DNA of 64,000 nt from the NCBI RefSeq assembly GCF_001304615.2, contig NZ_CP032683.1, forward strand, positions 2,666,001 to 2,730,000, in the 5' to 3' direction. The position numbers were made by a program, and so were the translations under genes. The number at the start of each line of letters is the position of its first letter. Within the stretch, counting starts at the first letter, position 1. The stretch comes from Methanosarcina flavescens (GTDB taxonomy: Archaea > Halobacteriota > Methanosarcinia > Methanosarcinales > Methanosarcinaceae). The notes beneath the pieces were generated by a model. That model was not told where the DNA came from. It saw only the letters and a program-made list of their open reading frames with translations, and searched no databases. This document shows, one piece after another, positions 47,747-63,855 of the stretch.

Positions 47747-47912
47747 CGCTTATGCAGACAATTTTAGAAGAATTCGCGTTTAGCTTCTTTCAAGAGGCTA
47801 AAATTTTATTTTTATATAAATTTATTCTTACAAGTTTGTAAGAATAAAACCAATATTATTTTTTACATTTTTGATTCAATAAATAGGATTAATTCTGAAA
47901 ATGGTGTTTTTA

Positions 47913-48512: not shown

Positions 48513-48861
48513 AATCAGAAGGATTTCGAATTTTATTTCCGGCTCATTTTTTGTTCATTTTTATCATACTTTTATCTCATACTTGTTATCTAAATCCTCT
48601 ATTCATTTTCTGTCTTTCTGAGTGCCTTTTTTCTTCCAGCTTTTTTCTTCCATTTTGCATCTATTTTATCATCTGTCTGGCATTCTCTTTATCTTCCATC
48701 CATCATCTTCTTTTTTCTTTGGTCTATATTCTTGCTGTATTTTTCCTTATAAGAAAAAAAGATAGAACACAACTTCTTGACCGCTTTATATTTGTTTCCT
48801 TCAAAGTTATATACGGTTTGAAGCCATATCATTAAAAACTGATTCAATGAAGGGTGAATAA

Positions 48862-49269
48862 ATGGTAAAGTTAACTGATGAAATGAAGCAAGATTTTGCA
48901 AAGATGAAAATCTTTCCGTTTGCAACCGCATCTAAGGGTGGAGAACCGAACGTAATACCTATAGGAATGTGCAAATTGCAGGAAGATGGAGAAACAATCT
49001 GGATTACAGACAATTATTTCTTAAAAACCCGCAAGAACCTTGACGAAAATCCTAGAGGAGCAATTTATGTCTGGGGCCCGGAAATAGAGGGCTGTTACCA
49101 GATAAAAGGGGACATTGAGATCAAGACCGAGGGTGAAGATTACGAGAAAATGTACAAAATGGTCAAAGGCATAGGAGAGAGATTTCCTGCAAAAGCCCTT
49201 GCCGTTATGAAAATTACTGAAGTTTATGAGTGCAAAGCCTTCACAGAGCCAGGAAAGAGGCTTCTCTAA
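48862..49269 (+). CDS. Pyridoxamine-phosphate-oxidase-like FMN-binding protein
   Basis: 135 residues with a split-barrel fold: MKIFPFATASKGGEPNVIPI, then DNYFLKTRKNLDENPRGAIY. This small form is typical of archaeal flavin reductase or F420/FMN-binding family members and not of true PdxH; nearness to pdxST may be coincidental. GGGTGAATAA precedes the start. The pyrimidine-rich stretch between pdxT and this gene (48513-48861) contains a hydrophobic ORF that I consider spurious. Confidence 0.85.
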   Translation: MVKLTDEMKQDFAKMKIFPFATASKGGEPNVIPIGMCKLQEDGETIWITDNYFLKTRKNLDENPRGAIYVWGPEIEGCYQIKGDIEIKTEGEDYEKMYKMVKGIGERFPAKALAVMKITEVYECKAFTEPGKRLL

Positions 49270-49503
49270 AAGCTTTTACAAGTCACATAAAAACTCACAA
49301 TTTTTTTCTGACGCAGGGATGGAAAACGTCCTTGTAACTTTTCCTTTTTAAAAAATATTCTCAGTAAAGGGCATATTTATGTCTTTTTTCAGGCAATTCT
49401 TTTAGTTTCGTAGCAATATTTCATAAATATGTACATTGATTGTTTGAGAGTTTGCACAGAAACTATATATGTCTGGGTTTCTAATTAATTTTTGGGTGAT
49501 AGT

Positions 49504-50004
49504 ATGAAAACCTGGAAAATGTTGATTTTATGCATTATTATAGGATTGATGGCTGTTCCTGCGGCTTCAGCAGAGGAAGCATATGCGGAAAACTCTGATA
49601 CTAAAGTTACTTTAGATTCTGCTGGATACGATTATGTTGTTAGTCCCTCAACAGAAAATTCTTCTGATACAGAGAATTCTATTTCTCTTCTACGGTCAAC
49701 CCAATATATAACTCAGGGACAGACCATAACTCACAATGTAAACGTAGGTTCAGGAGTGAATTACCTTGAAGTGGATTTAAACTGGGGAGACACAAGCGAT
49801 TCACTTACTCTTACCATTTACACCCCCTCTGGAAGCAAACTCGGAACTTACCGTGATAGTTCTGACGGAAGTACAAATGGCAGGATACATCTCAACATAG
49901 ATCCCTCTCAGGGATACGTGCAACAGGGAACCTGGAAGTTCAATGTCTACGGAGAATCGGTTAGTGGAACCGAAGACTACACATTTAATGTTTACCAACA
50001 TTAA
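49504..50004 (+). CDS. Exported protein with PPC-like beta domain
   Basis: About 166 residues from ATG 49504 (MKTWKMLILCIIIGLMAVPA), a signal peptide ending near ASAEEA. A Ser/Thr/Asn-rich linker follows, then a beta-sandwich: TQYITQGQTITHNVNVGSGV, DSLTLTIYTPSGSKLGTYRD and GTWKFNVYGESVSGTEDYTF, a pattern of bacterial pre-peptidase C-terminal domains. There is no catalytic domain. Its 3' end overlaps the start of the next gene by 17 bases, so the two are probably co-translated. Confidence 0.8.
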   Translation: MKTWKMLILCIIIGLMAVPAASAEEAYAENSDTKVTLDSAGYDYVVSPSTENSSDTENSISLLRSTQYITQGQTITHNVNVGSGVNYLEVDLNWGDTSDSLTLTIYTPSGSKLGTYRDSSDGSTNGRIHLNIDPSQGYVQQGTWKFNVYGESVSGTEDYTFNVYQH

Positions 50005-50728
50005 GCTTGAAAAAAAGGTTATCTTCTTTTTACTATTTTTTCTTTTAACAACAACAGCTGAGGCTACAGAATATGTTGTAAGCTCAGCTCCAGGTGACCA
50101 AGCCGGAGCTTCAATTAAAGGAGAAAAGGTAGTAAAACTTGAGGATACCTTAATACCCTACTGGCAGTTTTTGCTCTGGCTGACTGCAATGCAAATTTTA
50201 TCAATAATAGACGTCGTTCTGTACTTTACAAAGCTCATTTTTGTAATACTGGGATTTAAAATTGTAAATAAAGAAAACGTACTAGATAATCCTGATCGGT
50301 CTAGTATTTATACATATATTAAAACTAAACCGGGAGCATGCATCGGTGAAATTGTAGAAAAAACAGGCTTCGGCAGAGGAAGAGTAAGGCATCATATAAC
50401 TATTCTAGAAGTTCAGAACAAAATTGAAGTCCATAAAGACAGTGGAAAGATTAGGTATTTCAAAAATAATTCCACTTATCATGAAGAGAGAAAAATTATT
50501 TCTGCCCTTCAAAACGTAACAAGTCAAAGAATAATTTCAGAAATACAAAATGGGAATTGTAATACGAACTCAGCTCTTGCACATGAAATCGGAGTTTCCA
50601 GAGCTACAATTAGCTGGTATATGAGAACTCTTAAAGAAGTGGAGCTCATAAATGAAGAAAGAGAAGGAAAAAACATTATTTATAGAGTAAACCCTACTTA
50701 TGAAAACTTGATTGAAAAATATGGATAA
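49988..50728 (+). CDS. Membrane-anchored tandem winged-helix regulator
   Basis: About 246 residues from ATG 49988 (MFTNIKLEKKVIFFLLFFLL). An N-terminal membrane/signal segment, an external stretch, and a second membrane helix near residue 75-95 lead to two winged-helix domains: RSSIYTYIKTKPGACIGEIV, then HHITILEVQNKIEVHKDSGK; and a second with GVSRATISWYMRTLKEVELI. Archaeal membrane-bound wHTH proteins of this plan sense an outside signal and bind DNA inside. It is co-expressed with the PPC-like protein and lies just before the precursor clusters, so control of those clusters is an attractive guess. An earlier frame start at 49943 is less likely. Confidence 0.85.
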   Translation: MFTNIKLEKKVIFFLLFFLLTTTAEATEYVVSSAPGDQAGASIKGEKVVKLEDTLIPYWQFLLWLTAMQILSIIDVVLYFTKLIFVILGFKIVNKENVLDNPDRSSIYTYIKTKPGACIGEIVEKTGFGRGRVRHHITILEVQNKIEVHKDSGKIRYFKNNSTYHEERKIISALQNVTSQRIISEIQNGNCNTNSALAHEIGVSRATISWYMRTLKEVELINEEREGKNIIYRVNPTYENLIEKYG

Positions 50729-51053
50729 AATAACCTTGAATCCAGTTTTAAAATAACGGCTATCAAAAAATTTCTGAAAAGTCTGCTTCAATCTCGCTAC
50801 ATCTTTTTTCTCTAGTCTACTTATTCTTAAACCCTGAGTCTATATAGTCTCAAGAATAAAAGCTGACTTTACCCATCTTGAGGTAAAAAGACATCAATAA
50901 CAAAATTATAAAAATCAGAAGATCTCGTAAAGTCCAATTTTGCCGCAAAGAGATGTTATATCCTAAAGGGTATATAGATTATTCTTTTTAGTGAAAACCT
51001 GGTTACTAGCTGTAGACTTTAAACAATTGGCGTTAAACTGTTCTATATAGAAC

Positions 51054-51143
51054 TTCCGGCCAAGCTCTCTAACTGTTTTTTGTAGCTCATTTTAGATCTG
51101 TAAAGATTCTCTTATCTCTGATAGTTAGAGAAATTGGCCGGAA
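51054..51143 (+). promoter_or_regulatory. Long inverted repeat upstream of precursor 1
   Basis: 21-base arms (TTCCGGCCAAGCTCTCTAACT and its near-complement ending TTGGCCGGAA) pair with two mismatches around a 48-base spacer. Immediately upstream is the perfect 14-bp palindrome GTTCTATATAGAAC (51040-51053). The equivalent structure is at 55942-56030 and 60591-60680. It lies some 100 bases upstream of the nearest TATA-like box, so it is more likely a DNA-binding site than part of the precursor mRNA. Confidence 0.6.
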
Positions 51144-51221
51144 AACTTATAAAGGATTATTTAATAACTGAGTAAGTGGGAATGTTGCAGGATTCAGTAG
51201 AGTTTGAGGGCAATGCTGAAC

Positions 51222-51341
51222 CCTGCATACCCGAAGGCATGAAGTATATAACTTTCTAACTATTTTAAAGTTTGCTTCTTGCCTGCATACCCGAAGGCAT
51301 GAAGTATATAACTTTCTAACTATTTTAAAGTTTGCTTCTTG
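51222..51341 (+). repeat. Duplicated 60-bp promoter-like unit, cluster 1
   Basis: Two exact tandem 60-bp units, each containing a purine-rich BRE-like stretch and TATATAA (51245-51251 and 51305-51311). From the second box the expected start of transcription is near 51335, giving a leader of about 40 bases before the TTG start. Cluster 3 has the same duplication; cluster 2 has one diverged unit. Confidence 0.75.
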
Positions 51342-51373
51342 CCTCTTGAATTAAAGTAAAGAGGTGAAATAAA

Positions 51374-52126
51374 TTGAGATTAAATGACGAAGTTAGAAAA
51401 ATTAGCGGGCTTTTCATGATAATGCTCGTTGTAGGTATGATACTGGTTACGCCTGCATTGGCATGCCCTCCTAATGTACAGACTGAGCAAGACAGTTCTA
51501 ACACATTAACAGATTGTCCAGCTTGTTCGTTAAGTTCTGAGTATGCTAATTATTCAGATGCTAAAGTGGAAACCATAGAACTATCCGAAAAAGAACAGAA
51601 AAAAGCCACAGCAGAAGCATTATCAGATGAAAGTGTCTCAAAGTTGAGAGATGAATTGATAAAATTAGGGTATGTTTCCTCTATTGAAGAAATCTATACA
51701 ATGAAGTCAACTACAACAACAGAAAATGAAACAGTAACAACTACAATTGTAACGATGCCATTTAATGGTACAAATAATGATTCAGCTGTTATCGTATTTG
51801 CTTCCAATGAACTTGGAAATGCTGCAATGGCAGGTGTAGCAAATAACGGTGAGCTAACAGTATTGCAGTACGATTCTGTCACGGATCAAGTACAAATAAC
51901 GGGACTATCTTGTGATTTCTGCATGTGGGCTGTCGGTGAAATATGTGATCTCATTTCAGCTTACGGATGCAAACAAGTATGTACCATAATAGCTACAAGA
52001 ATTCCACATCCAGCTTGGATAGCTTTCACAGGGGTTACTTGTTGGGCGCTATGTAGCTTTATTGTAAGTTATAAGGCATGCAATTGGGCAACTAGCGAAG
52101 TATGTGAAGGAGCGGGGCTATGTTAA
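51374..52126 (+). CDS. Halocin C8-like cysteine-rich peptide precursor 1
   Basis: 250 residues with a TTG start placed six bases after GAGGTGA. A basic N-terminus and signal peptide end at VTPALA-C31. A middle domain (about 32-175) carries CPAC and a Thr-rich segment. The C-terminal core (about 180-250) has ten cysteines at 180, 183, 191, 199, 203, 223, 227, 236, 244 and 250, ending GAGLC. As I recall it, mature halocin C8 is a 76-residue peptide with ten cysteines, a CxxC start, similar end spacing and a RAGLC end, released from a precursor whose N-terminal part gives immunity. The resemblance is strong, so I infer an archaeocin or similar secreted peptide. The mature boundary is unknown. 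Confidence 0.82.
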   Translation: MRLNDEVRKISGLFMIMLVVGMILVTPALACPPNVQTEQDSSNTLTDCPACSLSSEYANYSDAKVETIELSEKEQKKATAEALSDESVSKLRDELIKLGYVSSIEEIYTMKSTTTTENETVTTTIVTMPFNGTNNDSAVIVFASNELGNAAMAGVANNGELTVLQYDSVTDQVQITGLSCDFCMWAVGEICDLISAYGCKQVCTIIATRIPHPAWIAFTGVTCWALCSFIVSYKACNWATSEVCEGAGLC

Positions 52127-52413
52127 TGTTAAACCCTCTTTTTACTTTTTTTATTTTTTATGTGGCCTCATTAGCTACTCGCGTAATAATAATGACTTAT
52201 TACCCACAATATACTTATTTTGCGCATGTGCTTTCTTCGCTTTTGATTTCCATTGGCATGGCTTTTTCGATTCCATTTATGAAACCAATTATTTCGCGTC
52301 TTCCAAAACTCAGTCCAAAAATGAATCGGTGGTTTAAAATGGGATTTGTTATTCTGGTTTTTATAACAACTTTTTTGATATCTTATTATAAATATATGCC
52401 TCAAAGTCAATAA
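52126..52413 (+). CDS. Small membrane protein coupled to precursor 1 (candidate immunity)
   Basis: 95 residues. Its ATG at 52126 shares a base with the precursor stop (TAATG), so it should be translated by re-initiation. About three membrane helices; the conserved segment YYPQYTYFAHVLSSLLISIG recurs almost unchanged in the cluster 3 counterpart. The C-terminus is basic. It has no known domain. Position, size and one-to-one pairing with the peptide gene suggest a self-protection protein; a role in export or processing is the alternative. Confidence 0.75.
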   Translation: MLNPLFTFFIFYVASLATRVIIMTYYPQYTYFAHVLSSLLISIGMAFSIPFMKPIISRLPKLSPKMNRWFKMGFVILVFITTFLISYYKYMPQSQ

Positions 52414-52492
52414 CGAAGGCATATAACCGATTATAATCGTTTAAATACTCATTAAAACTTAGCGAATAAAATTGAGCAAGAGAGGCCCTAAG

Positions 52493-53494
52493 ATGTTAAA
52501 AGAACTCATAATTATGATTTTTCTCCTCAATATAATGGCAGGTGGATGCTTGGAAGATACAAACGATAAACCAACCGTTGAAGAAATAATGTATCATACA
52601 CAGGATAAATATGAGTCTATTGACGTATTCAAGGCGACAATGATTTCTACAACAAATTTTCAAGGAGAAGAAGTAGCTCAAGAAATGGATTTTTTGTTTG
52701 AGAAACCAAACAAATATAAATGTGTTAATAAAGTCGAAAATTTCACAACAATCTCTAACGGTGAAGTTGTCTGGATGTACCATTCGGACAAGGATGAAGT
52801 AACAGTAGAAGATCTAGAAGATTCTAAAAGAATGCCAAGTTTCGATTATGGCATGATTTTTAAAGACTTAACCATAATCAATGATATGAGCTTGATTGGG
52901 GATGAAAAATTATCTGGTAAGTCTTGTTATGTAATTGAGGCTATACCAAAAAATAAGACTGCCATAATATCCCAGAATATATGGATAGATAAGGAAAGCT
53001 GGATTCCAATTAGAATCGATAGAGATTTTGGAGGTTATAAATCGAGGGTAGAATACATAAACATATCTGTAAACACCGATGTCAGTGATAATGAGTTTGA
53101 ATTTATTCTACCAGCAGATGCGAAAATTGTAAAGCCAAATACATCGCTCCCAAACCAAATTAGCATGGAAGAAGCTCAGGAAAGTGCAAATTTTACAATA
53201 TTGAAACCTTCTTATTCTGCTGGTTATCAATTCAATGGTGCTACAATTGGCGAATATGCGGATAGCGTCTCTTTATCTTATGCTAAAGGAAGAAGTCTTT
53301 TAACTATTGTTCAAACTCGGTCCAAGTATCCTGTACCAAATGCCGAAAATGTTACAATTGGAGAATTAAAAGGAGAAATTACAGAGACTTTTGGTAATAA
53401 AATGTTAAGGTATAACGATGGCAATATTTACGTCATAATTGCAGGCACAGTAAGTGAAGAAGAACTTGTAAAAATAGCCGAGTCCATGACGTGA
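52493..53494 (+). CDS. LolA-like lipoprotein (DUF4367-type C-terminus), cluster 1
   Basis: 333 residues from the ATG at 52493 after GAGAGG (the frame is open 21 bases further). The lipobox is NIMAGGCLED. The first two thirds resemble the LolA/LppX fold of outer-membrane-lipoprotein-sorting family proteins (DVFKATMISTTNFQGEEVAQ; QNIWIDKESWIPIRIDRDFG; VSDNEFEFILPADAKI). The last 120 residues form a DUF4367-like domain (SAGYQFNGATIGEYADSVSL). Such proteins bind lipid or hydrophobic ligands. Here it may shield cells from, or carry, the hydrophobic peptide. A paralogue is at 61967. Confidence 0.8.
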   Translation: MLKELIIMIFLLNIMAGGCLEDTNDKPTVEEIMYHTQDKYESIDVFKATMISTTNFQGEEVAQEMDFLFEKPNKYKCVNKVENFTTISNGEVVWMYHSDKDEVTVEDLEDSKRMPSFDYGMIFKDLTIINDMSLIGDEKLSGKSCYVIEAIPKNKTAIISQNIWIDKESWIPIRIDRDFGGYKSRVEYINISVNTDVSDNEFEFILPADAKIVKPNTSLPNQISMEEAQESANFTILKPSYSAGYQFNGATIGEYADSVSLSYAKGRSLLTIVQTRSKYPVPNAENVTIGELKGEITETFGNKMLRYNDGNIYVIIAGTVSEEELVKIAESMT

Positions 53495-53604
53495 CCACTC
53501 ATGGCAATTATTTCTACCATTTGATTGGAATATAAAAATATCAATGTATTAAAGTTGTATTTTTTAGTTCGAAACGAAAAAATATACACTTGTTAGGAAT
53601 CTTT

Positions 53605-54642
53605 ATGAAAAGCAGTTCTCACACAATAACTGTGCTAACCATTATTCATTTATCTCTTATTTTTATACCAGTAGTTGGTGCAGATCCGGTTACAATCCAG
53701 TATTTCCATCAAAAAGGTTGTCATGATTGTGAAATAACTGATCCTATTGTCAATCGAATAGAAGCTCAATATGAGAACATGGTTATAACAAGAATTGAAA
53801 CCAGTACTGTTGATGGTTTCAACCGATGGAATAAATATGGTTTTCTTGAAGTCCCGGCTATTGTGATAAACAATGAAACAAAACTTCCCAAAGAAGAAAT
53901 TACTGAAGAAAAGCTAAAAACTTTAATCGATGAATATCTTGCGGCAGAGGAAAATATTACTGAATATACTACAGAAGAGGCAACGAGAAAAGAACAGGAA
54001 AACGAGTATATAAACACAAACCTGAATTTGCCATTTGCTTATTCACTAGGTCTTTTTGCAGGTTTTTCACCCTGCCTGATGGCCATACTGGGATTTCTTT
54101 TAAGTTTTACTGCAGGGACGAGCAATAGTGCGAAAAGCGGTATGATACGTGCAACGGTGTTTGGATTGGGACTGGTAGGTTCTTACTTAGTATTGGGCCT
54201 GTGTTTGCTCTCATTCCAAAAATCAATTCCCGATTTGGAAAGCTTTTCTTTTGTTACAGGCATTGTTGTAATTCTTATCGGGTTAAACCTTCTGGGGATC
54301 TTAAAATCACCTGTCGTTCTGGATAATTATTTTCGAAGTTCTGCCAGGAAATATGCAGGTACTCTGGGTGGAGTTTTCTTTCTTGGGATACTGTTTTCGT
54401 TTGTAAAAGTTCCCTGCACTGCTCCAATGCTCCTTGTACTTCTCAACAAGACTATTACAAACGGGACTGTTAATGATCTGGCTCTATTGCTTGCTTTCAG
54501 CGCCGGAGTATTGACACCTTTTATTGGAGTTGGCATGATAGGAGGCTATACTCTATCTAAACAAATTCGTTCATACAGAATATACCTGAAAAAAATCAGT
54601 GGATTTGTGCTTATATTACTTGGTTTATGGATAATGTTTTAA
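53605..54642 (+). CDS. Thioredoxin-CcdA fusion, thiol-disulfide membrane protein
   Basis: 345 residues from ATG 53605. A signal segment is followed by an extracytoplasmic thioredoxin-like domain with YFHQKGCHDCEITDP (CxxC) and the cis-Pro site EVPAIVI. A CcdA/DsbD-type membrane domain of about six helices follows, with its paired cysteines in AGFSPCLMAIL and FVKVPCTAPMLL. These proteins move electrons across the membrane to thiol-disulfide partners. It lies directly after the ten-cysteine peptide genes, and I infer it forms or isomerises their disulfides. Cytochrome c maturation is the alternative, but no cytochrome genes are nearby. Confidence 0.88.
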   Translation: MKSSSHTITVLTIIHLSLIFIPVVGADPVTIQYFHQKGCHDCEITDPIVNRIEAQYENMVITRIETSTVDGFNRWNKYGFLEVPAIVINNETKLPKEEITEEKLKTLIDEYLAAEENITEYTTEEATRKEQENEYINTNLNLPFAYSLGLFAGFSPCLMAILGFLLSFTAGTSNSAKSGMIRATVFGLGLVGSYLVLGLCLLSFQKSIPDLESFSFVTGIVVILIGLNLLGILKSPVVLDNYFRSSARKYAGTLGGVFFLGILFSFVKVPCTAPMLLVLLNKTITNGTVNDLALLLAFSAGVLTPFIGVGMIGGYTLSKQIRSYRIYLKKISGFVLILLGLWIMF

Positions 54643-54757
54643 ATTATCCAGCAAAACACAAAATCATAAAGTTCGATCTATATAACTGAGTGATAATATA
54701 AAATTTATATAAATTGCATGACTTCAATTAAATAAAATTTGCAATGGTGTAAGAGAT

Positions 54758-55429
54758 ATGGATAATCTGAACTTAAATACTCTATTATTTGACCCAAATT
54801 CATTTTTCAGAGAAAAACTAGGAAATGAAGTTAGTCTTAAGTATCCTCTATTGATAATACTTGTGATGGCTGTATTAACAGTAAGTTCAAGTATTGTGGT
54901 TATGAATAACCTTCAAGATTCGTTTTCTTCTGGCATGGATTCATCTATGTCTTCTTCAGTAATGTCAAGTATCATTGGAGGCGTTGCCATCGGGGGTTTT
55001 ATTGGAACATTTTTATATTGGGTTATACTGGCTGGAATCTTATATTCAATATCTTATGTGTTTAAATCGAAGGGTTCTTTCAAGAGAACGTTAGAATTTA
55101 CAGGTTATGGTTTTGTGCCACAAGTATTCAGCAGTTTAGTAGGTTTAATTGTAATGTATATCATGTTATCTTCAACCGATTTATCATCACAGGACTCAAT
55201 ATTTATGGGCCAGGGTGTAGAGCAGATGTTCTCAAATAATCCTCTGTTTTATACATCACAAATAATTGGAATTTTATGTCTCTTACTGTCTGGCTATATA
55301 TGGATATTTGCAATCTTGCATGCACGAAATATGTCATACAAAAACGCCGCTATTACTGTTGGTATTCCCATAGGTCTGGCCATTGTTATCCAGATATATT
55401 CTTTCCTGTTTACTTCCGGGAGCTTGTAA
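54758..55429 (+). CDS. Yip1-family membrane protein
   Basis: 223 residues with five membrane segments. The Yip1-like signature starts LLFDPNSFFREKLG and continues to GSFKRTLEFTGYGFVPQVFS and IWIFAILHARNMSYKNA. Prokaryotic Yip1 proteins often sit with transporters or secretion genes, but their function is not defined. Same strand as the upstream genes, 115 bases after the thioredoxin-CcdA gene with its own AT-rich spacer, so membership in cluster 1 is uncertain. GGTGTAAGAG precedes the ATG. Confidence 0.8.
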   Translation: MDNLNLNTLLFDPNSFFREKLGNEVSLKYPLLIILVMAVLTVSSSIVVMNNLQDSFSSGMDSSMSSSVMSSIIGGVAIGGFIGTFLYWVILAGILYSISYVFKSKGSFKRTLEFTGYGFVPQVFSSLVGLIVMYIMLSSTDLSSQDSIFMGQGVEQMFSNNPLFYTSQIIGILCLLLSGYIWIFAILHARNMSYKNAAITVGIPIGLAIVIQIYSFLFTSGSL

Positions 55430-55689
55430 TTCTGTAAAAAAAAGATCAGGAATGTTATATCAAATCTGAGAGGGCATACATCTCGAGCTGATTGAAATGC
55501 ACACATAGTGGCAGATTCCTTGTAAAACCCCTCTCTATTATAGTGATCACTAATATATAAATGAAAATCCAAAGAAAAACCGAAATTAAATCCCTCTTAT
55601 ATTTTTTTTCAGAGGTTATATAATATTTTCGATTTTATCCTGATGATGAGAATGAAAAACCTTTACAATCTTTTTTTGAAAAACTTATC

Positions 55690-56290
55690 TTTTTTCTCCA
55701 ATCTACTTATTTTTAAAACCCGAATCTATATAGTCCCAAGAATAAAAACTGACTTTACCCACCTTGCGGTAAAAAGATATAATGACAAAATTATAAAAAT
55801 CAAAAGATCTCGTAAAGTCCGACATTGCCATAGAAAACTACAAACTCTCAAAAAACATACTAAACATTCTTTTTTAGCAAAAAGCCTGGTTACTGATTGT
55901 AGACATTTAAATAATTGACATCGAACTGCTCTATATATAACTTCCGGCCAATTTCTCTAACTGTTTTTGTAGCTCATTTTAGAGCTGTAAAGATTCTCTG
56001 ATCTCTGATAGTTAGAGAGCTTGGCCGGAAAACTTATAAAGAATTCTCTAAAACTGAATAAGTGGGAATGTTGTGCAAGGTCCAGCAGAGTTTGAGAGCA
56101 ATTCTGAACCCTGCACGCCCGAAGGCGAGAAATAGATCACTTTAAAGCTATTTTAAAGTTTGTTTCTTGCCTCTTGAATGAAAGTAAAGAGGTGAAATAA
56201 ATTGGAATTAAATAACAAAATTAGAAAAATCAGCGGGCTTTTCATGATGATGCTCGTTGTAAGTATGGTACTGGTTACGCCTACGTTGGC
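55690..56290 (+). repeat. Leader cassette, copy 2 (diverged)
   Basis: This copy aligns with the cassettes at 50769 and 60308 over the upstream spacer, the long inverted repeat (55942-56030), a single promoter-like unit (from about 56107), the GAGGTGA ribosome site and the signal-peptide codons. It differs at many more positions than copies 1 and 3 differ from each other. A short ORF at 55643-55918 falls inside it and is not conserved in the other copies, so I do not call it a gene. The spacer 55430-55689 has nothing recognisable. Confidence 0.85.
55942..56030 (+). promoter_or_regulatory. Long inverted repeat upstream of precursor 2
   Basis: The arms are TTCCGGCCAATTTCTCTAACT and the near-complement ending TTGGCCGGAA. 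The two mismatched positions are the same as in copies 1 and 3 but with the arm variants exchanged (TT left, GC right here; GC left, TT right there), while the loop orientation is unchanged. Confidence 0.6.
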
Positions 56291-56816
56291 ATGTCCAGCT
56301 GGAACAAATTGCGGGAGTGATTCGGTTCCCGCAAACCCGATACAGCTAACAGGAGCGGATAAAGACAAAATGCTGAGTACGGCTTTAAGCGATAGTAATG
56401 TCAAAAAATATCAAGAGCAATTGATAAATGAAGGATATACACAAAATGGCAGTACAGCACTTGTTATACCAGTGGAAAATAAAAACGATAGCTCAATAAC
56501 TGAGATCAAATTTGCTGCAATAAGTTTCAAAAATGACAAGTCTCAAGAACCCAACAAAACTATACTATATAGCTACAATCCACAAACCAAAACAAGCACA
56601 ACTGTAGTGATAAATAGTTTACTAAGCGATTGTGTTTTCAACTTATCGATTTGTTTGGGGAGTGCTGCTACTTGCGTAATAATTTGTGGTCCGCTTTTGG
56701 CACCAAATCCAGCCACGCCATTAGAGGTAAAACTTTGTTTGGCATGCATACCAATTGGTGTCGGAGCCTGCGGACTTGCTTATACAGCATGCCACAAATA
56801 CTATTATGGAGAGTAA
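56202..56816 (+). CDS. Cysteine-rich peptide precursor 2 (different core, same leader)
   Basis: 204 residues, TTG start after GAGGTGA. The signal peptide is nearly the same as in precursors 1 and 3 (RKISGLFMMMLVVSMVLVTP; TLA-C31). The middle region (about 50-140) is only loosely related. The C-terminal core has eight cysteines at 144, 151, 158, 162, 179, 182, 190 and 197, is hydrophobic and glycine/alanine-rich, and ends HKYYYGE. It is not halocin C8-like in spacing. I infer a second type of secreted disulfide-rich peptide using the same expression and export leader. The name 'bacteriocin-like' rests on context. Confidence 0.7.
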   Translation: MELNNKIRKISGLFMMMLVVSMVLVTPTLACPAGTNCGSDSVPANPIQLTGADKDKMLSTALSDSNVKKYQEQLINEGYTQNGSTALVIPVENKNDSSITEIKFAAISFKNDKSQEPNKTILYSYNPQTKTSTTVVINSLLSDCVFNLSICLGSAATCVIICGPLLAPNPATPLEVKLCLACIPIGVGACGLAYTACHKYYYGE

Positions 56817-56858
56817 CGACGGACCTGAGAAAAGTTACAGTTATGAGGAGCTGGCCAA

Positions 56859-57239
56859 ATGAGAGTGATCATAAAAAGGAATTCAAAAAAATTCCTTTTT
56901 TTGCTTTTTTTATCAATTTTTGCCATCATAGGAGGTACTATAACAACATTAATGTCCCCAACAAAAATATCCTTAAATGGATTGTACCTTATATTGGCTG
57001 GGATTGGACTTTTTTTCCTTACGCTTTCAGCCTCTACAAAAGATCAAAAATCATTTGAACGATGGTCAATTTTTAGTGGTATTTTTTACGGTATTGCACT
57101 TCTTTGTGGTAGTTTAATTTCATTTAGATATGGCCAAACCGTAACTGCAAAGATAATTTTGCTATGTGGGGTAATTGTTATTTCATTGACGATATCTTCG
57201 ATCGTTTCGGTCTTAAGGAGGGGAAAACAGCATGTATAA
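56859..57239 (+). CDS. Four-helix membrane protein of cluster 2 (candidate immunity)
   Basis: 126 residues with four membrane helices (FLLFLSIFAIIGGTITTLM; LNGLYLILAGIGLFFLTLSA; IFSGIFYGIALLCGSLISF; IILLCGVIVISLTISSIVSV). GAGGAG precedes the ATG. It shows no similarity to the small membrane proteins of clusters 1 and 3, in parallel with the different peptide core. It overlaps the next gene by 8 bases. Function inferred from position only. Confidence 0.7.
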   Translation: MRVIIKRNSKKFLFLLFLSIFAIIGGTITTLMSPTKISLNGLYLILAGIGLFFLTLSASTKDQKSFERWSIFSGIFYGIALLCGSLISFRYGQTVTAKIILLCGVIVISLTISSIVSVLRRGKQHV

Positions 57240-58098
57240 CAATGCAAGAAAGAGGTTTGGGGTTATACTCATACTTATACTATTTGTGATCATGGCATTT
57301 GAACTTGGTTGTATTGGAAAAGCACAAACTGATTATAATCTAAAATATAATTTTCATGTAGGTGATAGACTTGTTTACAATTGCACATACCTCACAAGTG
57401 ATACATATTATACAGGATATATCACAAATAATACAAATTATACAGGACCAATTCGTATTGAAATGTTAGTTACAGATTTTGATGGAAAGAATATAACCTC
57501 AAAAATGACATCAACGAAAACAACAAATGAAAACACTACTGAATCTTCATATGTCACAATTATGGACGTTTATGGAAACCTGATAAGATCAGATCCCAAA
57601 GATAAAATTATACCTGAGGTACAACCGGAACTGCCAAATCTGCTAAAGTATCCAGAAAAAGAAACTCAAGAAGGTAAACCATGGACAATTGTATTCAAAA
57701 ATAACATAAATGAAAACCCTTTATTAAAAGATGAATTCGAAGGTACAGGAAACTACACTTTTTTAGGTACAAAAACAATATCGACAAAAGCCGGTAAATT
57801 TGAATGTATTGGTATCAAATCAGAAACAAATTTTGTTTCAAACGCAAAAAGAGACTATAGTAATACAACCATTCATTATACAACAGTAGGCAATATCTCT
57901 GGAGTAAATTGGATAGATTTAAATGGTGGATTCTCAGTTAAATCCAATTACATTATGGATAAAACTTTGACAATTGATTTATCTGGACTGGCCAATAATT
58001 CTGAATATCAGAAAGTCGGAATTGAAAATGTTAGTATCAATAGCCCGACAATTGAAACGCATATAATTAATGAACTTGAAAGCGTCCAGAAAGGATGA
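57232..58098 (+). CDS. Cluster 2 lipoprotein of unknown function
   Basis: 288 residues. Lipoprotein signal FVIMAFELGCIGKA; the rest is Thr/Asn-rich and beta-type (YNLKYNFHVGDRLVYNCTYL; STKAGKFECIGIKSET), with many glycosylation sequons. It occupies the place of the LolA-like lipoproteins of the other clusters but I cannot show homology. Overlap with the upstream gene (57232-57239) implies one operon. Confidence 0.75.
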   Translation: MYNNARKRFGVILILILFVIMAFELGCIGKAQTDYNLKYNFHVGDRLVYNCTYLTSDTYYTGYITNNTNYTGPIRIEMLVTDFDGKNITSKMTSTKTTNENTTESSYVTIMDVYGNLIRSDPKDKIIPEVQPELPNLLKYPEKETQEGKPWTIVFKNNINENPLLKDEFEGTGNYTFLGTKTISTKAGKFECIGIKSETNFVSNAKRDYSNTTIHYTTVGNISGVNWIDLNGGFSVKSNYIMDKTLTIDLSGLANNSEYQKVGIENVSINSPTIETHIINELESVQKG

Positions 58099-58187
58099 TA
58101 TAAGAACATCCAAATCAATGTGATTTTTACAAGGTTGTCCATACTTTTGTGTACGGACAATTTAATTGTTTTTTTATTGTTTGATTA

Positions 58188-59285
58188 TAGTTCTTGACGT
58201 AACCTATTACACATATTAACTCTTATGATCTCTTATGGGTGGGGAAAGAACAAATTGTTATTGATCGGAAGTTGAGTCTTGATAAGGTAAACTCTCTAAT
58301 TAAACATGAAAACAACTCTAGAGTTCTAAAAAGGCTTTATTTTATCAAATTTAGGTATTTAGGAGATTCTGTTGAAGAAGCTTCTATCAAGGTTGGAGTA
58401 ACTAAGAAATGTGGTTATTATTGGCAGGATTATTGGAATAAAGGCGGCTATGCCGCCTTGATACCACAATTTGGTGGGGGAAGAAGGTCTAAGCTTACTG
58501 ATGAACAAATGATAGAACTAAGGAATCTATTGAAAAAGAAGGATTACTGGACTACCAGAGAAGTTTTAGAATTAATAAAAGAAAAGTATGGCGTAGAATA
58601 CTCGTTGAAAAGAATAGGAGTTATTCTGAAAAATTTTGGAATGCATCACTCAAAACCATATACTCTTGACTACAGAAGACCTAAAGATGCAGAAGAAATT
58701 TTAAAAAAAACTAAGTGAAGCAATTCCAAAGTATGTTTGTCCAGATTAGAAATATGTGATAGGCTTCCTTGATGAATCTTCGCCACAAACAAAAGCAAAC
58801 ACACAGCGTTTATGGGCATTTAAAAAGTCTTTAAGGCTCAAAAACACAGATTACATAAAGGCAAATGCATTTGCTTTTTACTCAATTAATGGAAGTAATC
58901 TCATTGATTTTAAAGAAAGTTCAAAAGCAGAAAGTATATATGAGTTTCTTGAAGAAATAGTGGAAGAAAACAGAGGAAAAATAATAGTCCTTATACTCGA
59001 TAATTCAAAAGTACATAAGGCAGACAAAACAAAAACAAAAGCTAGAAAACTGGGAATTATACTGGTGTTTCTTCCGCCTTACTCACCAGATCTAAACCCT
59101 GTAGAATTTATATGGAAAACAATTAAAAGAGAAGTATCAGTCAGATTTGTTCAATCAAAAGAACATTTGAGAAATATAATCAAAAATGAATTCATCAGGG
59201 TAGAGGGGTCAATATCATTTGCAAAAAAGTGGATAGAAAAATTTCATCCACAAATAAAAAGTGTAATTAGTTGAGAGAGAAACTA
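58188..59285 (+). mobile_element. IS630-family insertion sequence, frameshifted
   Basis: An approx. 1.1-kb element whose imperfect ends both begin TAGTT and share AATTACAC/TATTACAC about 20 bases in, bordered by TA at 58186-58187 and 59286-59287, as expected for IS630/Tc1 insertion at TA. It carries a two-part transposase. A truncated relative starts at 59819. It separates cluster 2 from cluster 3. Confidence 0.75.
58239..59274 (+). pseudogene. IS630-type transposase, broken into two frames
   Basis: The first part (58239-58718, GTG start) is the helix-turn-helix region with NNSRVLKRLYFIKFRYLGDS and YYWQDYWNKGG. The frame ends at TGA after an A8 run (58703-58710). One base fewer would continue LSEAIPKYVCPD, but a TAG then follows at 58747 before IGFLDESSP. 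The second part (58756-59274) has the DDE residues FLDESS, ILDNSKVHKADKT and the typical LPPYSPDLNPVEFIWKTIKR. Frameshifting is known in some IS630 relatives and UAG can encode pyrrolysine in Methanosarcina, but two lesions make inactivity more likely. Confidence 0.8.
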
Positions 59286-59560
59286 TAAATTGATTACGAA
59301 AAATAGATTTATTAAAGGTGGATATTTGGTTGTGTGATGTAATAATAGTTTCCAGACTAATAAATAACACTTCAGCCAAAAACAGCTACCTTTTAATATT
59401 TTTTAGCTTTGATCCTCCTTATGGAAAATGGATTAATTACCGAATCTGAAATTAAGATTCTACCGTAGGAGAATAGAATAAGTTTAGAAGTATAATTCCT
59501 GAATCAATCTACTTCAGATGTAGCTTGGACTAAAATAAGTAGTAAAAGGGTTGATTAATT

Positions 59561-59647
59561 ATGGGAAAATTAGTTAAAACTGTTATAGGTCTTATAATTT
59601 TGTGTCTTATAATTTATGCATTTTTTTTGGTACTTAGCTATAGGTAG
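59561..59647 (+). pseudogene. Fragment of a small membrane protein, MITE-interrupted
   Basis: MGKLVKTVIGLIILCLIIYA and FFLVLSYR then TAG (28 codons). A shift near 59635 would continue AIGSVLGYF up to the 121-bp MITE at 59663, whose far side adds II and a stop. It may be the remains of a one- or two-helix membrane protein. The preceding 270 bases (59288-59560) show no gene. Confidence 0.35.
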
Positions 59648-59662
59648 TGTTTTGGGATATTT

Positions 59663-59783
59663 GGCTCTGTAGAAATCCTCAAAATAATAAATCTTAACTA
59701 GTTTGAACTGAATAGCCGGATATGTTTTTACTTATTTAATTTTATCCTCTTGTAAATGATTTAGATAGGTTTTCTACAGAGCC
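59663..59783. mobile_element. 121-bp MITE sharing ends with the 1,004-bp IS
   Basis: The terminal repeats GGCTCTGTAGAAATCCT and GGCTCTGTAGAAAACCT match the 17-bp ends of the IS at 23458. An 8-bp target duplication GGATATTT lies at 59655-59662 and 59784-59791, the same duplication length as that IS. There is no coding capacity; it was presumably mobilised by that transposase. Confidence 0.9.
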
Positions 59784-59818
59784 GGATATTTTATAATCTA
59801 ATTGCATCGATCAATTTA

Positions 59819-60123
59819 TAGCCCTAATGTTAACCTGTTACACACATTAGCTCTTAATATCCATTTATGATGAGGAAAGAACAAATTACTCTTGACCAAA
59901 AGGTAACCCTTGATTAGCTTAATTCCTTGATCACACACGAAAATAATTCTAGAGCACTTAAAAGGCTTCATTTTATCAAATTTACATATTTAGGAGATTC
60001 TGTTAAAGAAGCTACTATTAAACTTGAAGTAACTGAGAAAACATTACATTATTGGCAGGACTATTGGAATAAAGGCGGAATAGACGCCTTAATGCTACAG
60101 TTTAGTAGGGGAAGAATATTTAA
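59819..60123 (+). pseudogene. Truncated IS630 remnant
   Basis: It starts with a TATAG...GTTACACAC end like the IS at 58188 and encodes KEQITLDQKVTLD, a TAG, then LNSLITHENNSRALKRLHFI, YLGDSVKEATIKLEVT and YWQDYWNKGGIDALM. It breaks off within GRIFK at about 60123, where a 179-bp inverted-repeat element begins. The 3' two thirds of the IS are missing. Confidence 0.85.
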
Positions 60124-60125
60124 GC

Positions 60126-60304
60126 GGCTCTTCGCTATTTTGTATGGGTTGAAAATAATTACTTAGTTAGAAAGTAGCCAGATCAAATGGACAAATATCA
60201 AGCTTGAATGCGATTTACAACAACTACTATTTCTAAATTTTAGAGGCGCAGCTTTAACATTCAGAAGCTGAATGAAAGTTACCCACTCGAAACAGCGAAG
60301 AGCC
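60126..60304. mobile_element. 179-bp MITE-like element with ~24-bp inverted repeats
   Basis: The ends GGCTCTTCGCTATTTTGTAT and the complement of the right end (GGCTCTTCGCTGTTTCGAGT) both continue into TGGGT and match for most of 24 bases. GGCTCTTCG-type ends are typical of ISL3-related elements. No target duplication can be seen: the left side is IS630 remnant, and the right side is the start of leader cassette copy 3. The element marks the exact junction of the duplicated cassette. Confidence 0.75.
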
Positions 60305-60590
60305 AATAATTTCTGAAAAGTCTGCTTCAATCTCGCTACATCTTTTTTCTCTAGTCTACTTATTCTTAAACCCTGAGTCTATATAGTCTCAAGAATAAAA
60401 GCTGACTTTACCCATCTTGAGGTAAAGACATCAATAACAAAATTATAAAAATCAGAAGATCTCGTAAAGTCCAATTTTGCCGCAAAGAGATGTTATATCC
60501 TAAAGGGTATATAGATTATTCTTTTTAGTGAAAACCTGGTTACTAGCTGTAGACTTTAAACAATTGGCGTTAAACTGTTCTATATAGAAC

Positions 60591-60680
60591 TTCCGGCCAA
60601 GCTCTCTGACTGTTTTTTGTAGCTCATTTTAGATCTGTAAAGATTCTCTTATCTCTGATAGTTAGAGAAATTGGCCGGAA
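60591..60680 (+). promoter_or_regulatory. Long inverted repeat upstream of precursor 3
   Basis: Same arms as at 51054 (TTCCGGCCAAGCTCTCT...) with one extra change (A to G at the inner end of the left arm), preceded by the palindrome GTTCTATATAGAAC. Confidence 0.6.
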
Positions 60681-60757
60681 AACTTATAAAGGATTATTTA
60701 AAACTGAGTAAGTGGGAATATTGCAGGATTCAGTAGAGTTTGAGGGCAATGCTGAAC

Positions 60758-60877
60758 CCTGCATACCCGAAGGCATGAAGTATATAACTTTCTAACTATT
60801 TTAAAGTTTGCTTCTTGCCTGCATACCCGAAGGCATGAAGTATATAACTTTCTAACTATTTTAAAGTTTGCTTCTTG
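60758..60877 (+). repeat. Duplicated 60-bp promoter-like unit, cluster 3
   Basis: Two exact 60-bp units with TATATAA boxes at about 60781 and 60841, identical in arrangement to cluster 1. Confidence 0.75.
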
Positions 60878-60909
60878 CCTCTTGAATTAAAGTAAAGAGG
60901 TGAAATAAA

Positions 60910-61647
60910 TTGAGATTAAATGACGAAGTTAGAAAAATTAGCGGGCTTTTCATGATAATGCTCGTTGTAGGTATGATACTGGTTACGCCTGCGATGGCGT
61001 GTCCGGCTGGGAAAGATTGCCCTAATGTATCTCAAAACTGCCCAGCGTGCGGATATTTAAGTGCTCCAAAATCAGATGCTGAAGTGAACATGATAGAGAT
61101 ATCAAAAGAAAAAGAAAAAAAAATTATAGCAGAAGCATTATCTGATGAAAGAATCTCAAAGTTAAACAGTGAGCTTAAAAAACTAGGCTACACTCCTTCT
61201 ACTAGTGAATTCAATGCATCGATGCTAACTACAACAACGACAAACGAAACAGTCACAAGTTCGATTGTAATAATGCCATTTGACAACGGGCGTAAAAATG
61301 AATCTGCTGTCGCAGTATTTACTTCCAATGAACATGGAAGTGCTGCCATAGCAGCTATGCGAAATAACAGTGAGGTCACATTACTAGAGTACGATTCTGT
61401 TAAGGGTACCTTCCAAGTAAGTTCGGTGGATTGTGACTTCTGTATGTGGGCTGTTGATAAAATATGTGGTTACCTCGCAGAGGGAGGATGCGCTTATGCA
61501 TGTGCGCAACTAGCTACAAAGATTCCGCATCCAGCTTGGATGGCTGTTTCAGCGGCTTTTTGCTGGGTAATATGTGACTTCGTTCTAGAAAATTATGCAT
61601 GCAGTTGGAGCGCAACTACAGTTTGTCAAGAAGTGGGGTTGTGCTAG
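60910..61647 (+). CDS. Halocin C8-like cysteine-rich peptide precursor 3
   Basis: 245 residues, TTG start after GAGGTGA. The first 28 residues are identical to precursor 1. The middle region has CPAGKDC and CPAC motifs, a charged helix (EISKEKEKKIIAEALSDERI) and a Thr-rich segment. The core has cysteines at 175, 178, 186, 194, 198, 218, 222, 231, 239 and 245, exactly the spacing of precursor 1, and ends EVGLC. The central IPHPAW and the DFCMWAV start are shared with precursor 1, while other core positions vary. Interpretation as for precursor 1: a secreted disulfide-rich antimicrobial-type peptide. Confidence 0.82.
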   Translation: MRLNDEVRKISGLFMIMLVVGMILVTPAMACPAGKDCPNVSQNCPACGYLSAPKSDAEVNMIEISKEKEKKIIAEALSDERISKLNSELKKLGYTPSTSEFNASMLTTTTTNETVTSSIVIMPFDNGRKNESAVAVFTSNEHGSAAIAAMRNNSEVTLLEYDSVKGTFQVSSVDCDFCMWAVDKICGYLAEGGCAYACAQLATKIPHPAWMAVSAAFCWVICDFVLENYACSWSATTVCQEVGLC

Positions 61648-61943
61648 TGAAGCCTATTATTACTTCTATTATTACTTTTTTTCTTTTTTTAATAATGTCA
61701 TCAGTTATTCGTATCACAATAATGTCTTATTATCCACAATATACCTATTTTGCGCACGTACTTTCTTCGTTTTTGATTGCTATAGGTTTTGCATTTTCAA
61801 TCCCTTTCATATTTATGAAATATCTCTCACTTCCCCCTAATTATAGCCCAAAGACGAAGAAAAGGATCCAAATTGGGTTTACTATTTTGGTTTTTGTATC
61901 ATCATTTTTAGGATCCTATTTTGGAAATATGCCAAAAATATAA
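61647..61943 (+). CDS. Small membrane protein coupled to precursor 3 (candidate immunity)
   Basis: 98 residues from a GTG at 61647 that shares a base with the precursor stop (TAGTG), the same coupling as TAATG in cluster 1. Membrane segments ITSIITFFLFLIMSS and HVLSSFLIAIGFAFSIPF; the motif YYPQYTYFAHVLSS is shared with the cluster 1 protein. An upstream in-frame ATG at 61599, inside the precursor, is disfavoured because the homologue lacks that part. Confidence 0.75.
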   Translation: MKPIITSIITFFLFLIMSSVIRITIMSYYPQYTYFAHVLSSFLIAIGFAFSIPFIFMKYLSLPPNYSPKTKKRIQIGFTILVFVSSFLGSYFGNMPKI

Positions 61944-61966: not shown

Positions 61967-62965
61967 ATGTTAAAAAGAATCATAATTATTCTTTTCTTCT
62001 TTATAGTTGTAGGCGGATGTTTAGAAGAGACAAACAATTTATTAAACGCTGAAAAAATAATAAATAATTCTCAGGAAAGATACGGATCTATTGACGTATT
62101 TAAGTATACAGTAATTTCCACAACAGAGTTTCAAGGAGAAGAAGTAACTCAAAAAATAGATTTTTTGTTTAAGAAGCCAAACAAGTATAAGTGCATTTAT
62201 CAATCAAAGAACTTAACTACAGTTTCTAATGGAACAGTTACCTGGATATACGATTTAACTAAAGGTGAAGTAACAGTAAAACATTTAGAAGGCTATAAAG
62301 GAACACCAGATTTTGATTATGGCACTCTTCTTAAAGACTTACTTAAAACTAATAATGTGAAATTAATTGGAGAAAAGGAACTATTTGGAAAATCATGTTA
62401 TATAATTGAAGCTATACCAAAAAATAAAACTTCTATAATATCTCAAGACATGTGGGTAGATAAAGAAAGCTTGATTCCAGTTAGAATCGATACAAATTAT
62501 GGAGATTATAAATCAAGGGTAGAATACACAAATATATTCGTAAGCACTGATGTTAACGACAATGAATTTGAGTTTACTCTACCAGAAGGCGCAAAAATTA
62601 TAGAACCGAGCACAACACTTCCCAACCAAGTCAATATAGAAGAAGCTCAGAAGAGCGTAAATTTTACAATATTGAAACCTTCTTATTGTGCTGGGTACCA
62701 ATTCGCAGGGGTGACAGTACTTGAATATGGAAATAGTGCTTATTTAACCTATTCTAAAGAAGGAAACGTGTTAACTATTTTTCAAACTCCATCCAAGAGT
62801 TCAGTATCAAATGTAGGAAATATTACAATCGAAAATTTAAAAGGGAAAACAATCGAAATATTTGACAATACAATTATCAAATATAACTATGGGAATACAT
62901 ATATTATAATTTCAGGTCCAGTAAGTGAACAAGAGCTTATAAAAATAGCAGAGTCTTTGGGATAA
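61967..62965 (+). CDS. LolA-like lipoprotein, cluster 3
   Basis: 332 residues, paralogue of the 52493 product along its full length. Lipobox FIVVGGCLEE; then DVFKYTVISTTEFQGEEVTQ, DMWVDKESLIPVRIDTNYGD, VNDNEFEFTLPEGAKI and a DUF4367-like end (CAGYQFAGVTVLEYGNSAYL). GGAGAT precedes the ATG. Immediately downstream is a decayed fragment of the same family. Confidence 0.8.
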   Translation: MLKRIIIILFFFIVVGGCLEETNNLLNAEKIINNSQERYGSIDVFKYTVISTTEFQGEEVTQKIDFLFKKPNKYKCIYQSKNLTTVSNGTVTWIYDLTKGEVTVKHLEGYKGTPDFDYGTLLKDLLKTNNVKLIGEKELFGKSCYIIEAIPKNKTSIISQDMWVDKESLIPVRIDTNYGDYKSRVEYTNIFVSTDVNDNEFEFTLPEGAKIIEPSTTLPNQVNIEEAQKSVNFTILKPSYCAGYQFAGVTVLEYGNSAYLTYSKEGNVLTIFQTPSKSSVSNVGNITIENLKGKTIEIFDNTIIKYNYGNTYIIISGPVSEQELIKIAESLG

Positions 62966-63025: not shown

Positions 63026-63214
63026 AATGAAACATATAGTCATCATATTCTATGGATTGATCCCAAAATCTGGATGCCGTTAAAGATCCAAAGTTATAAC
63101 GGTGACAAACTTCTGATGACACTAGAATATGAGAATTATTCTATAAATTCAGGCATAAAAGATACTGAATTTGAATTTAAACCTCCAGAAGGTACTGAGG
63201 TGATTAATATATGA
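63026..63214 (+). pseudogene. 5'-truncated LolA-like lipoprotein fragment
   Basis: The open frame without a start gives HHILWIDPKIWMPLKIQSYN, then LMTLEYENYSINSGIKDTEF and EFKPPEGTEVINI, the C-terminal part of the LolA-like domain (compare WIDKESWIPIRIDRDF... in cluster 1). Its TGA overlaps the ATG of the next gene (ATGA at 63211-63214), so it was once an operon member. The N-terminal two thirds are gone. Confidence 0.75.
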
Positions 63215-63855
63215 ATATAGACCATATCGTTAAAGAAGAATTATTACGTTCACTTCCAGTACTATTTGTTAGTTTTTTAATAATCGGGCTACTGATTAGG
63301 GAAGGATATATTCCGTTAGAGATGTCAAGGGTATTTATTCTTGCCCTCTTTGTTACAGCTGTCCATTTCTTTTTTATGGTCTGGTATAGAAAAAAGGAAC
63401 AGATTGATAAGAATTCTATCTTTTATATAATTGACCATATTTTGAGCTCAAGGTTTTATGAAGAAAAAACTGCAAAATCCCATGATAAAGAAATCAGCAT
63501 CTTTTCCTCGCTTCGAAAAAATGTGGGTCTTCTAATTATTACGCTGTTCCTGTATATTGCTTACCTCTACGCATCTCTAACTTATCACATAGATCAGATC
63601 TTCTGGATCTTAGTTCTATTATTTGTTGGGGGCACGCTATCAAAAATCATATATGGTGAAAGGAAAGAAGATCAAAACAATCCTGTGAGATTGCTGTTTT
63701 TCTATGTAATCGCATGCGTTTTTATTTTTGTACGTTACCTTGTACTTGATTATCCTATTCTTCCTGTTTTAAAAGGAAGTATAATTCTTGGAATATTACT
63801 GATATTTTTGGTTTTAGGAATAAAATGGTCGCAGCGTAAACAAAACTCGATTTAA
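63211..63855 (+). CDS. Multi-pass membrane protein of cluster 3
   Basis: 214 residues with about six membrane helices (LPVLFVSFLIIGLLIREGYI; VFILALFVTAVHFFFMVWY; VGLLIITLFLYIAYLYASL; LLFFYVIACVFIFVRYLVL; IILGILLIFLVLGIKW). A short charged internal loop carries KEEQID-type residues. Family not recognised. It overlaps the decayed lipoprotein fragment by 4 bases, and is followed by another lipoprotein start, indicating the operon continues. Confidence 0.7.
   Translation: MNIDHIVKEELLRSLPVLFVSFLIIGLLIREGYIPLEMSRVFILALFVTAVHFFFMVWYRKKEQIDKNSIFYIIDHILSSRFYEEKTAKSHDKEISIFSSLRKNVGLLIITLFLYIAYLYASLTYHIDQIFWILVLLFVGGTLSKIIYGERKEDQNNPVRLLFFYVIACVFIFVRYLVLDYPILPVLKGSIILGILLIFLVLGIKWSQRKQNSI

Follow-up and report, generated by a model that had tools for sequence, protein, structure and literature searches.

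Cysteine-rich peptide cassettes with sRNA162-type antisense RNAs in Methanosarcina flavescens: candidate archaeocins of the halocin C8-like domain family

Background

Whether a methanogenic archaeon may possess peptide antibiotics of its own, and by what means it would keep them under control, is the question raised by a gene island in Methanosarcina flavescens. The island lies in a stretch of 64,000 nucleotides on the forward strand of contig NZ_CP032683.1 (positions 2,666,001 to 2,730,000), hereafter the window, from whose first letter all coordinates below are counted. In the account consulted (PMC10105419), the established archaeocins comprise only the halocins and the sulfolobicins, and none is described from a methanogen.

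A preliminary description of the window had pointed to two precursors like that of the haloarchaeal antibiotic halocin C8, to a multi-copy set with dedicated maturation genes, and to a substantial extension of such peptides beyond halophiles. Our analysis adds a third precursor, homologues of the small RNA sRNA162 antisense to all three precursor leaders, and conserved hairpins in the 5'-untranslated regions (5'-UTRs). We consider it probable that the island encodes archaeocins which are exported by the Sec route, stabilised by disulfides and probably active on membranes, and that each cassette brings its own immunity and is controlled by an antisense RNA. The domain model TIGR04449 already includes halocin C8-like domains from outside the halophiles; what is new is the polymorphic cassettes, the predicted saposin-like fold and the link with sRNA162.

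Results

Three precursors and their cores

Precursor 1 (51374..52126, + strand) and precursor 3 (60910..61647, + strand) are open reading frames lying exactly where they had been placed in the preliminary description, with 250 and 245 residues respectively and a TTG start in each. Precursor 1 is composed of a signal peptide (residues 1-30), a pro-region and a C-terminal core (180-250), and the core of precursor 3 covers residues 175-245. Both cores, which form the 'IPHP' subclass B, have ten cysteines, the last ten of each protein, at the spacing 3-8-8-4-20-4-9-8-6; both begin with CDFC, and one ends with AGLC and the other with VGLC. The lattice, the CxxC start, the GLC end and the position of the core at the end of a larger precursor are thus the same in both proteins as had been described, while the identity between the two cores is 45%. 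The set is indeed multi-copy, and more so than had been noted: precursor 2 (56202..56816, + strand) shares the leader of the other two and has a pro-region, followed by a different core (class C) with eight cysteines in a lattice other than that of precursors 1 and 3.

The leader of the precursors reads MRLNDEVRKISGLFMIMLVVGMILVTPA(L/M)A|C, after which come the pro-region and the C-terminal core. The signal peptide MRLNDEVRKISGLFMIMLVVGMILVTPAMA|C contains no RR (twin-arginine) motif, and in this it differs from halocin C8, which has a twin-arginine translocation (Tat) signal; the cysteine at its end (A-x-A|C) may belong to a lipobox. The TTG starts are credible, since in almost all Methanosarcina relatives this codon comes after the same AGAGGTG ribosome site.

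Relationship to halocin C8

The halocin C8-like domain model TIGR04449 has 69 positions and a curated cut-off of 24 bits. It aligns over its whole length (1-69/69) with both subclass B cores, giving 23 bits for precursor 1 and 24 bits for precursor 3 when whole proteins are searched, and 25.4 and 26.4 bits, both above the cut-off, in a scan of the whole genome (3.28 Mb), in which no third match occurs; precursor 2 is not matched by the model. Chance can be excluded for the subclass B cores since the match runs end to end in both. The profile search proposed earlier thus did find a relationship, and the comparison by hhalign of subclass B with the canonical cores, real halocin C8 included, gives a probability of 96.4 and an E-value of 1.1e-9.

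The spacing of the cysteines is another matter. In L082, a relative genome which we take to encode the mature halocin C8 sequence itself, the canonical lattice is 3-8-4-8-14-8-9-9-6, and most relatives have 3-8-4-8-14-8-8-8-6, whereas the lattice in the window is 3-8-8-4-20-4-9-8-6. Relatives with the canonical lattice, from Methanosarcina and other genera, score higher (45-63 bits). In two loci of another family (L090 and L095) there are 12 cysteines at 3-8-8-4-4-12(13)-4-4-8-8-6, which is the window lattice with one cysteine pair added within the 20-residue gap, and the IPHP motif is common to L090 and the subclass B cores. Membership of the subclass B cores in the halocin C8-like domain family is therefore supported by these sequence comparisons, and membership in halocin C8 proper is not, because both the spacing and the signal type differ.

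We rejected the idea that a halocin-like domain is seen here outside halophiles for the first time, as TIGR04449 already has matches in 8 of the 112 genomes of Methanosarcinaceae and, across the phylum, in 16 of the 136 genera sampled; the extension envisaged earlier is thus not a first one. The halocin C8 family is said to have been expanded already, by Makarova and colleagues in 2019, to diverse archaea.

With ProC8, the halocin C8 precursor of Natrinema (strain AS7092), precursors 1 and 3 share a larger secreted precursor, a C-terminal ten-cysteine core, the CxxC start and the (A)GLC end. According to a title cited in PMC11509114, ProC8 has as its N-terminal portion HalI, an immunity protein in which a helix-loop-helix is essential, and a helix-loop-helix is likewise modelled at the N-terminal end of the pro-region of precursor 2. 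Besides the shifted lattice and a Sec-like signal in place of the Tat one, the window loci differ from halocin C8 in their additional class-matched membrane proteins, a nearby fusion of thioredoxin (Trx) with CcdA, predicted antisense RNA control and a non-halophile host.

Predicted fold of the core

An AlphaFold model of the precursor 3 core, built from two sequences only, has three helices and a mean predicted local distance difference test (pLDDT) of 90.9, so the structure prediction suggested in the preliminary description gave a confident result. Among PDB structures the model is best matched by saposin A (probability 0.99, template-modelling score 0.73/0.69, Foldseek E-value 0.35), and the next ones are saposin D and NK-lysin. 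Searching the PDB sequences with the subclass B profile, 7 of the 9 matches (E-value up to 10) are amoebapore A or saposins, among which amoebapore A (E-value 0.5) and saposin C (0.63-0.66) are aligned end to end; the whole-family profile gives one match, prosaposin (E-value 2), and the canonical class A profile gives none. No saposin match appeared in the Pfam scan of the window proteins. From a viral library the core retrieved a weak match to a giant-virus pro-saposin-like protein and nothing else, and the halocin C8 scan of viral contigs found no relatives.

The modelled core has the compact helical fold of ~75 residues that characterises saposin-like proteins (SAPLIP). With saposins, NK-lysin and amoebapores it has in common the predicted fold, the length, a C-x2-C start and a C-x5-C end, and its predicted fold is also that of the saposin-fold bacteriocins, enterocin AS-48 among them. 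It differs from these by its five predicted disulfides, instead of three in saposin-like proteins and none in AS-48-type bacteriocins, and by a sequence similarity to saposin-like proteins that is not significant. The spacing of the cysteines in the cores is near-palindromic, and where relatives lose cysteines they lose them in pairs, IV with VII in L042 and III with VIII in L096, which would fit a nested hairpin. As none of the scores is significant by itself, the saposin-like helical fold is well supported as an inference but not demonstrated. No link of halocins with a disulfide saposin fold was found in the literature searched. For precursor 2, the modelled pro-region (46-139) has a helix-loop-helix and a four-stranded sheet; its core has no confident structure in the full-length model (pLDDT 25-38), and the PDB search with this model returned nothing.

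sRNA162 homologues and the structure of the leaders

The covariance model of sRNA162 (Rfam RF02792) has 190 nucleotides and a cut-off of 78 bits. On the minus strand of the window it identifies three homologues, each antisense to the 5' leader of one precursor: 51050..51238 for precursor 1 (151.8 bits, full length), 55938..56126 for precursor 2 (156 bits) and 60587..60774 for precursor 3 (151 bits). By position, the RNAs, whose transcription is predicted, are antisense to the 5'-UTR in the window as well as in its relatives.

In M. mazei, sRNA162 is known to be antisense to the 5' end of MM2442 with a 65-nucleotide overlap, with MM2441, an ArsR-type regulator, and MM2440 located upstream (PMC3510493). 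The window has the same order, namely a secreted PPC-domain protein in the MM2440-like position (49492..50004, + strand), a membrane-anchored ArsR-type winged-helix regulator in the MM2441-like position (49943..50728, + strand), the antisense RNA and the precursor; it differs by having three copies and a 60-nucleotide duplication in two of the leaders. The distance from the 5' end of the RNA to the TTG, 74-77 nucleotides in nearly every intact relative, matches the published geometry, and it is 135 nucleotides in the two duplicated window leaders and 201 nucleotides in L048. When the annotated start of MM2442 is taken to be the ATG at codon 15, 42 nucleotides downstream of the TTG, the distance becomes 118 nucleotides, as against 184-65 = 119 published. 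Given this fit, the genome with the two best-scoring copies of sRNA162 (G082; 214.8 and 204.7 bits, 5.4 kb apart) is probably that of M. mazei or of its closest relative, and we infer that MM2442 belongs to the precursor family studied here.

Using the overlap reported for MM2442 to place the start of the transcript, the putative 5'-UTR of precursor 1 is 51174..51373 on the plus strand, and those of precursors 2 and 3 are 56062..56201 and 60710..60909. A perfect tandem duplication of 60 nucleotides occurs in both subclass B leaders (51222-51344 and 60758-60880) and is absent from the other leaders aligned. Two hairpins are found in the leaders. The first, ending with ...CTTGCC, is doubled by the duplication and shows covariation, with three pairs changed on both sides and 93.9% of positions paired, as compared with 0-1 covarying pairs and 40-65% pairing in slid controls. 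The second joins CCTCTT with AAGAGG around the ribosome-binding site (51339-51366, 56167-56194 and 60875-60902 for precursors 1 to 3); it is 97.6% paired and invariant, and so neutral as evidence. In the whole genome there are three occurrences of the motif TTGCCTCT-N-AGAGGTG, and each of them stands directly ahead of a precursor. The two hairpins compete, two C residues being common to both, and the 5' end of the sRNA overlies the GGC closing the first one; binding of the RNA would thereby allow the second hairpin to form, with the ribosome site hidden in it, a predicted direction with which the slight fall of MM2442 mRNA under overproduction of sRNA162 (PMC3510493) agrees. As for pairing in trans with the regulator mRNA, the published target, the duplex energies of the three window RNAs with the 49492/49943 junction were not below those of shuffled sequences, and the whole RNA paired diffusely, a result that speaks neither for nor against this target.

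An antisense RNA over the 5'-UTR of every precursor, with antisense binding to MM2442 demonstrated in vitro (PMC3510493), may also call to mind a type I toxin-antitoxin-like module, in which the RNA restrains a self-toxic membrane peptide that acts within the producer population and not on competitors. This is very improbable in our view, since known type I toxins are tiny and have no signal peptide, pro-region or separate immunity genes, the presence of which (as candidates in the case of the immunity genes) points outward here, and since overproducing the 5' fragment of sRNA162 gave no phenotype (PMC3510493).

Partner genes behind the precursors

Directly behind a precursor there usually stands a gene for a small membrane protein, of a family that is set by the class of the core, and after it comes a lipoprotein, often LolA-like. 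In cassette 1, the small membrane protein of family c11 (52120..52413, + strand) overlaps the precursor stop and is a candidate immunity protein; in cassette 3 the same family follows at 61599..61943 (+ strand), with a real start probably near 61640, and the family was found only beside subclass B precursors or remnants of them. The lipoproteins of these two cassettes, at 52472..53494 (+ strand; Pfam PF17131, PF14285) and 61967..62965 (+ strand; PF14285, PF17131), are of the LolA-like/DUF4367 type. In cassette 2 there is a four-transmembrane protein of family c16 (56859..57239, + strand), again a candidate immunity protein, which occurs only with class C cores, and then a lipoprotein of family c5 (57232..58098, + strand; weak DUF3108-like match), which accompanies cores of the classes C, G and H. 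With class and family labels assigned by hand, the rule of one core class per small membrane-protein family is perfect in 18 cases, and its mutual information was reached in 0 of 20,000 shuffles.

A probable partner in disulfide maturation, a thioredoxin domain (CHDC) fused to a DsbD/CcdA membrane domain, is encoded at 53590..54642 (+ strand). The Trx-CcdA fusion is present in 17 of 19 precursor loci; starting from the enzyme, 22 of 26 genes of its subfamily have a precursor nearby, and these loci added five precursors, one more class of core among them. Elsewhere in the same genome, at 3.19 Mb (L099:2046-9056), there is a second paralogue of Trx-CcdA with 74% identity and no visible precursor of the family; its neighbours, named by eye, are a chagasin-like inhibitor and a radical-SAM protein whose tail has eight cysteines.

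The matching of membrane proteins with core classes, the membrane-anchored regulator beside the precursors and the processing of sRNA162 in stationary phase (PMC3510493) could also be expected of secreted self-recognition or signalling peptides, where sister cells read the cores by their class-matched membrane proteins, the upstream regulator relays the message and no killing takes place. We think this unlikely in view of the kinship of the cores with a proven antibiotic, their predicted membrane-active fold and the partner membrane proteins, in which no signalling domain was found.

Further genes of the region are a Yip1-domain membrane protein inside the island (54758..55429, + strand; Pfam PF04893, E-value 1.8e-29) and a multi-transmembrane protein of family c3 (63211..63855, + strand), which recurs in 11 loci. 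Beside the island, at 46562-49269, are genes which by eye resemble pdxS/pdxT and a small gene of flavoprotein-like appearance; these neighbours (families c8, c10 and c12) are found again at other Methanosarcina loci, and their recurrence suggests a fixed chromosomal site for the island.

A polymorphic family in Methanosarcinaceae

Using the whole precursor as query, we found the leader in 18 of the 112 Methanosarcinaceae genomes, and behind one leader and pro-region there are at least 8 different cysteine lattices, for example 3-8-4-8-14-8-8-8-6, 9-2-7-8-3-7-9-6-12 and 3-11-4-12-3-10-2-3-2-8-7. The number of core cysteines is even in all 25 intact precursors. In L048, L054, L103 and L105 the spacing of a 12-cysteine core, 4-4-8-4-4-13-4-4-8-4-4, is an exact palindrome, which is the textbook picture of two antiparallel helices joined by a ladder of disulfides. 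Degraded subclass B relatives also occur: the one at L044:12174-12728 has an internal deletion with the middle of the core missing, and in that of L110 (near 8608) the leader is fused directly to the last core residues (..ACNWATSEICQEVGLC).

Between cassettes 1 and 3 the DNA identity is 99.4% in the sRNA/UTR block and 95.7% in the signal-peptide DNA, and falls to ~70% in the pro-region, core and membrane gene and 75% in the lipoprotein gene, as expected of cassettes which undergo exchange or diversification while their expression unit stays fixed. Pieces of IS630-type transposases, named by eye, separate cassettes 2 and 3 (58239-58718, 58756-59274 and 59927-60166), which fits the gain of cassettes by transposition or recombination.

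A common delivery part with exchangeable toxins and matching immunity genes recalls the archaeal polymorphic toxin systems, reportedly described by Makarova and colleagues in 2019, from which the present family differs in that its products are small disulfide peptides rather than large enzymatic toxins. The same diversity bears on the possibility that the cores serve in lipid handling, lifting or transferring membrane lipids together with the LolA-like lipoproteins as eukaryotic saposins do. Such a role would agree with saposin being the best fold match and with LolA-like partners in many cassettes, yet one would hardly expect housekeeping proteins to be confined to 18 of 112 genomes and to show so many lattices and swapped partners, and the cores keep their lattice more than their sequence; we judge it quite improbable.

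Discussion

In the archaeocin model that we favour, each cassette would make a Sec-exported precursor consisting of a signal peptide, a pro-region with a helix-loop-helix and a beta-sheet, and a cysteine-rich core. The core would be oxidised outside the membrane, with the adjacent Trx-CcdA supplying reducing power by which wrong disulfides are corrected, and the pro-region would keep it inactive or neutralised until it is cut free by a protease, as happens with halocin C8. Once free, the core of 71 residues, with five predicted disulfides and a saposin-like helical fold, would most likely kill related cells through their membranes, and the class-matched small membrane protein and the lipoprotein behind each precursor would protect the producer. 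The antisense RNA of the sRNA162 family would pair with the 5' end of the precursor mRNA and probably lower its translation. The sequence itself shows the precursors with their family match and the third core, the class-matched partners, the RNA homologues and the hairpins of the leaders, whereas cleavage, toxicity, immunity, disulfide pairing and the effect of the RNA are predictions.

Several points weigh against this model. The archaeocin activity itself is a prediction from sequence and structural modelling. The TIGR04449 scores are marginal, right at the cut-off, and every saposin match has an E-value above 0.1, support coming from the agreement of the matches and from the C-x2-C start and C-x5-C end. 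The cassettes contain no protease gene. No Trx-CcdA was found beside the 20 TIGR04449 loci outside Methanosarcinaceae, and a strictly dedicated role of this enzyme was rejected on account of the orphan paralogue in the same genome (G000:C1:3193992); of the dedicated maturation genes expected earlier, a disulfide-maturation gene nearby is what remains. Finally, 3 of the 33 sRNA162 copies examined (in L046, L040 and L145) precede secreted proteins with no cysteine-rich core, so that the RNA goes with other genes besides the toxin-like ones. A similar ribosome-binding-site hairpin is seen with these copies (L046:4063-4509, L040 near 16650 and L145 near 6950).

Conclusions

More broadly, we put forward tentatively, as a proposal somewhat less likely to hold than not, that the halocin C8 family consists of prokaryotic, disulfide-stapled saposin-like membrane killers, that sRNA162, the first archaeal sRNA to have its targets mapped, is the cis-antisense control of such a weapon, that MM2442 encodes the precursor of an archaeocin and has its start annotated wrongly, and that one Methanosarcina leader serves exchangeable cores. 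The island offers a concrete and genetically tractable case in Methanosarcina. It leads to a proposed function for MM2442, which has had no assigned function since 2012, would connect an archaeal sRNA of textbook standing with conflict between microbes, and raises the prospect that halocin C8 itself may be saposin-like and membrane-acting. Such peptides would have a bearing on how methanogens compete in digesters, in the rumen and in sediments.

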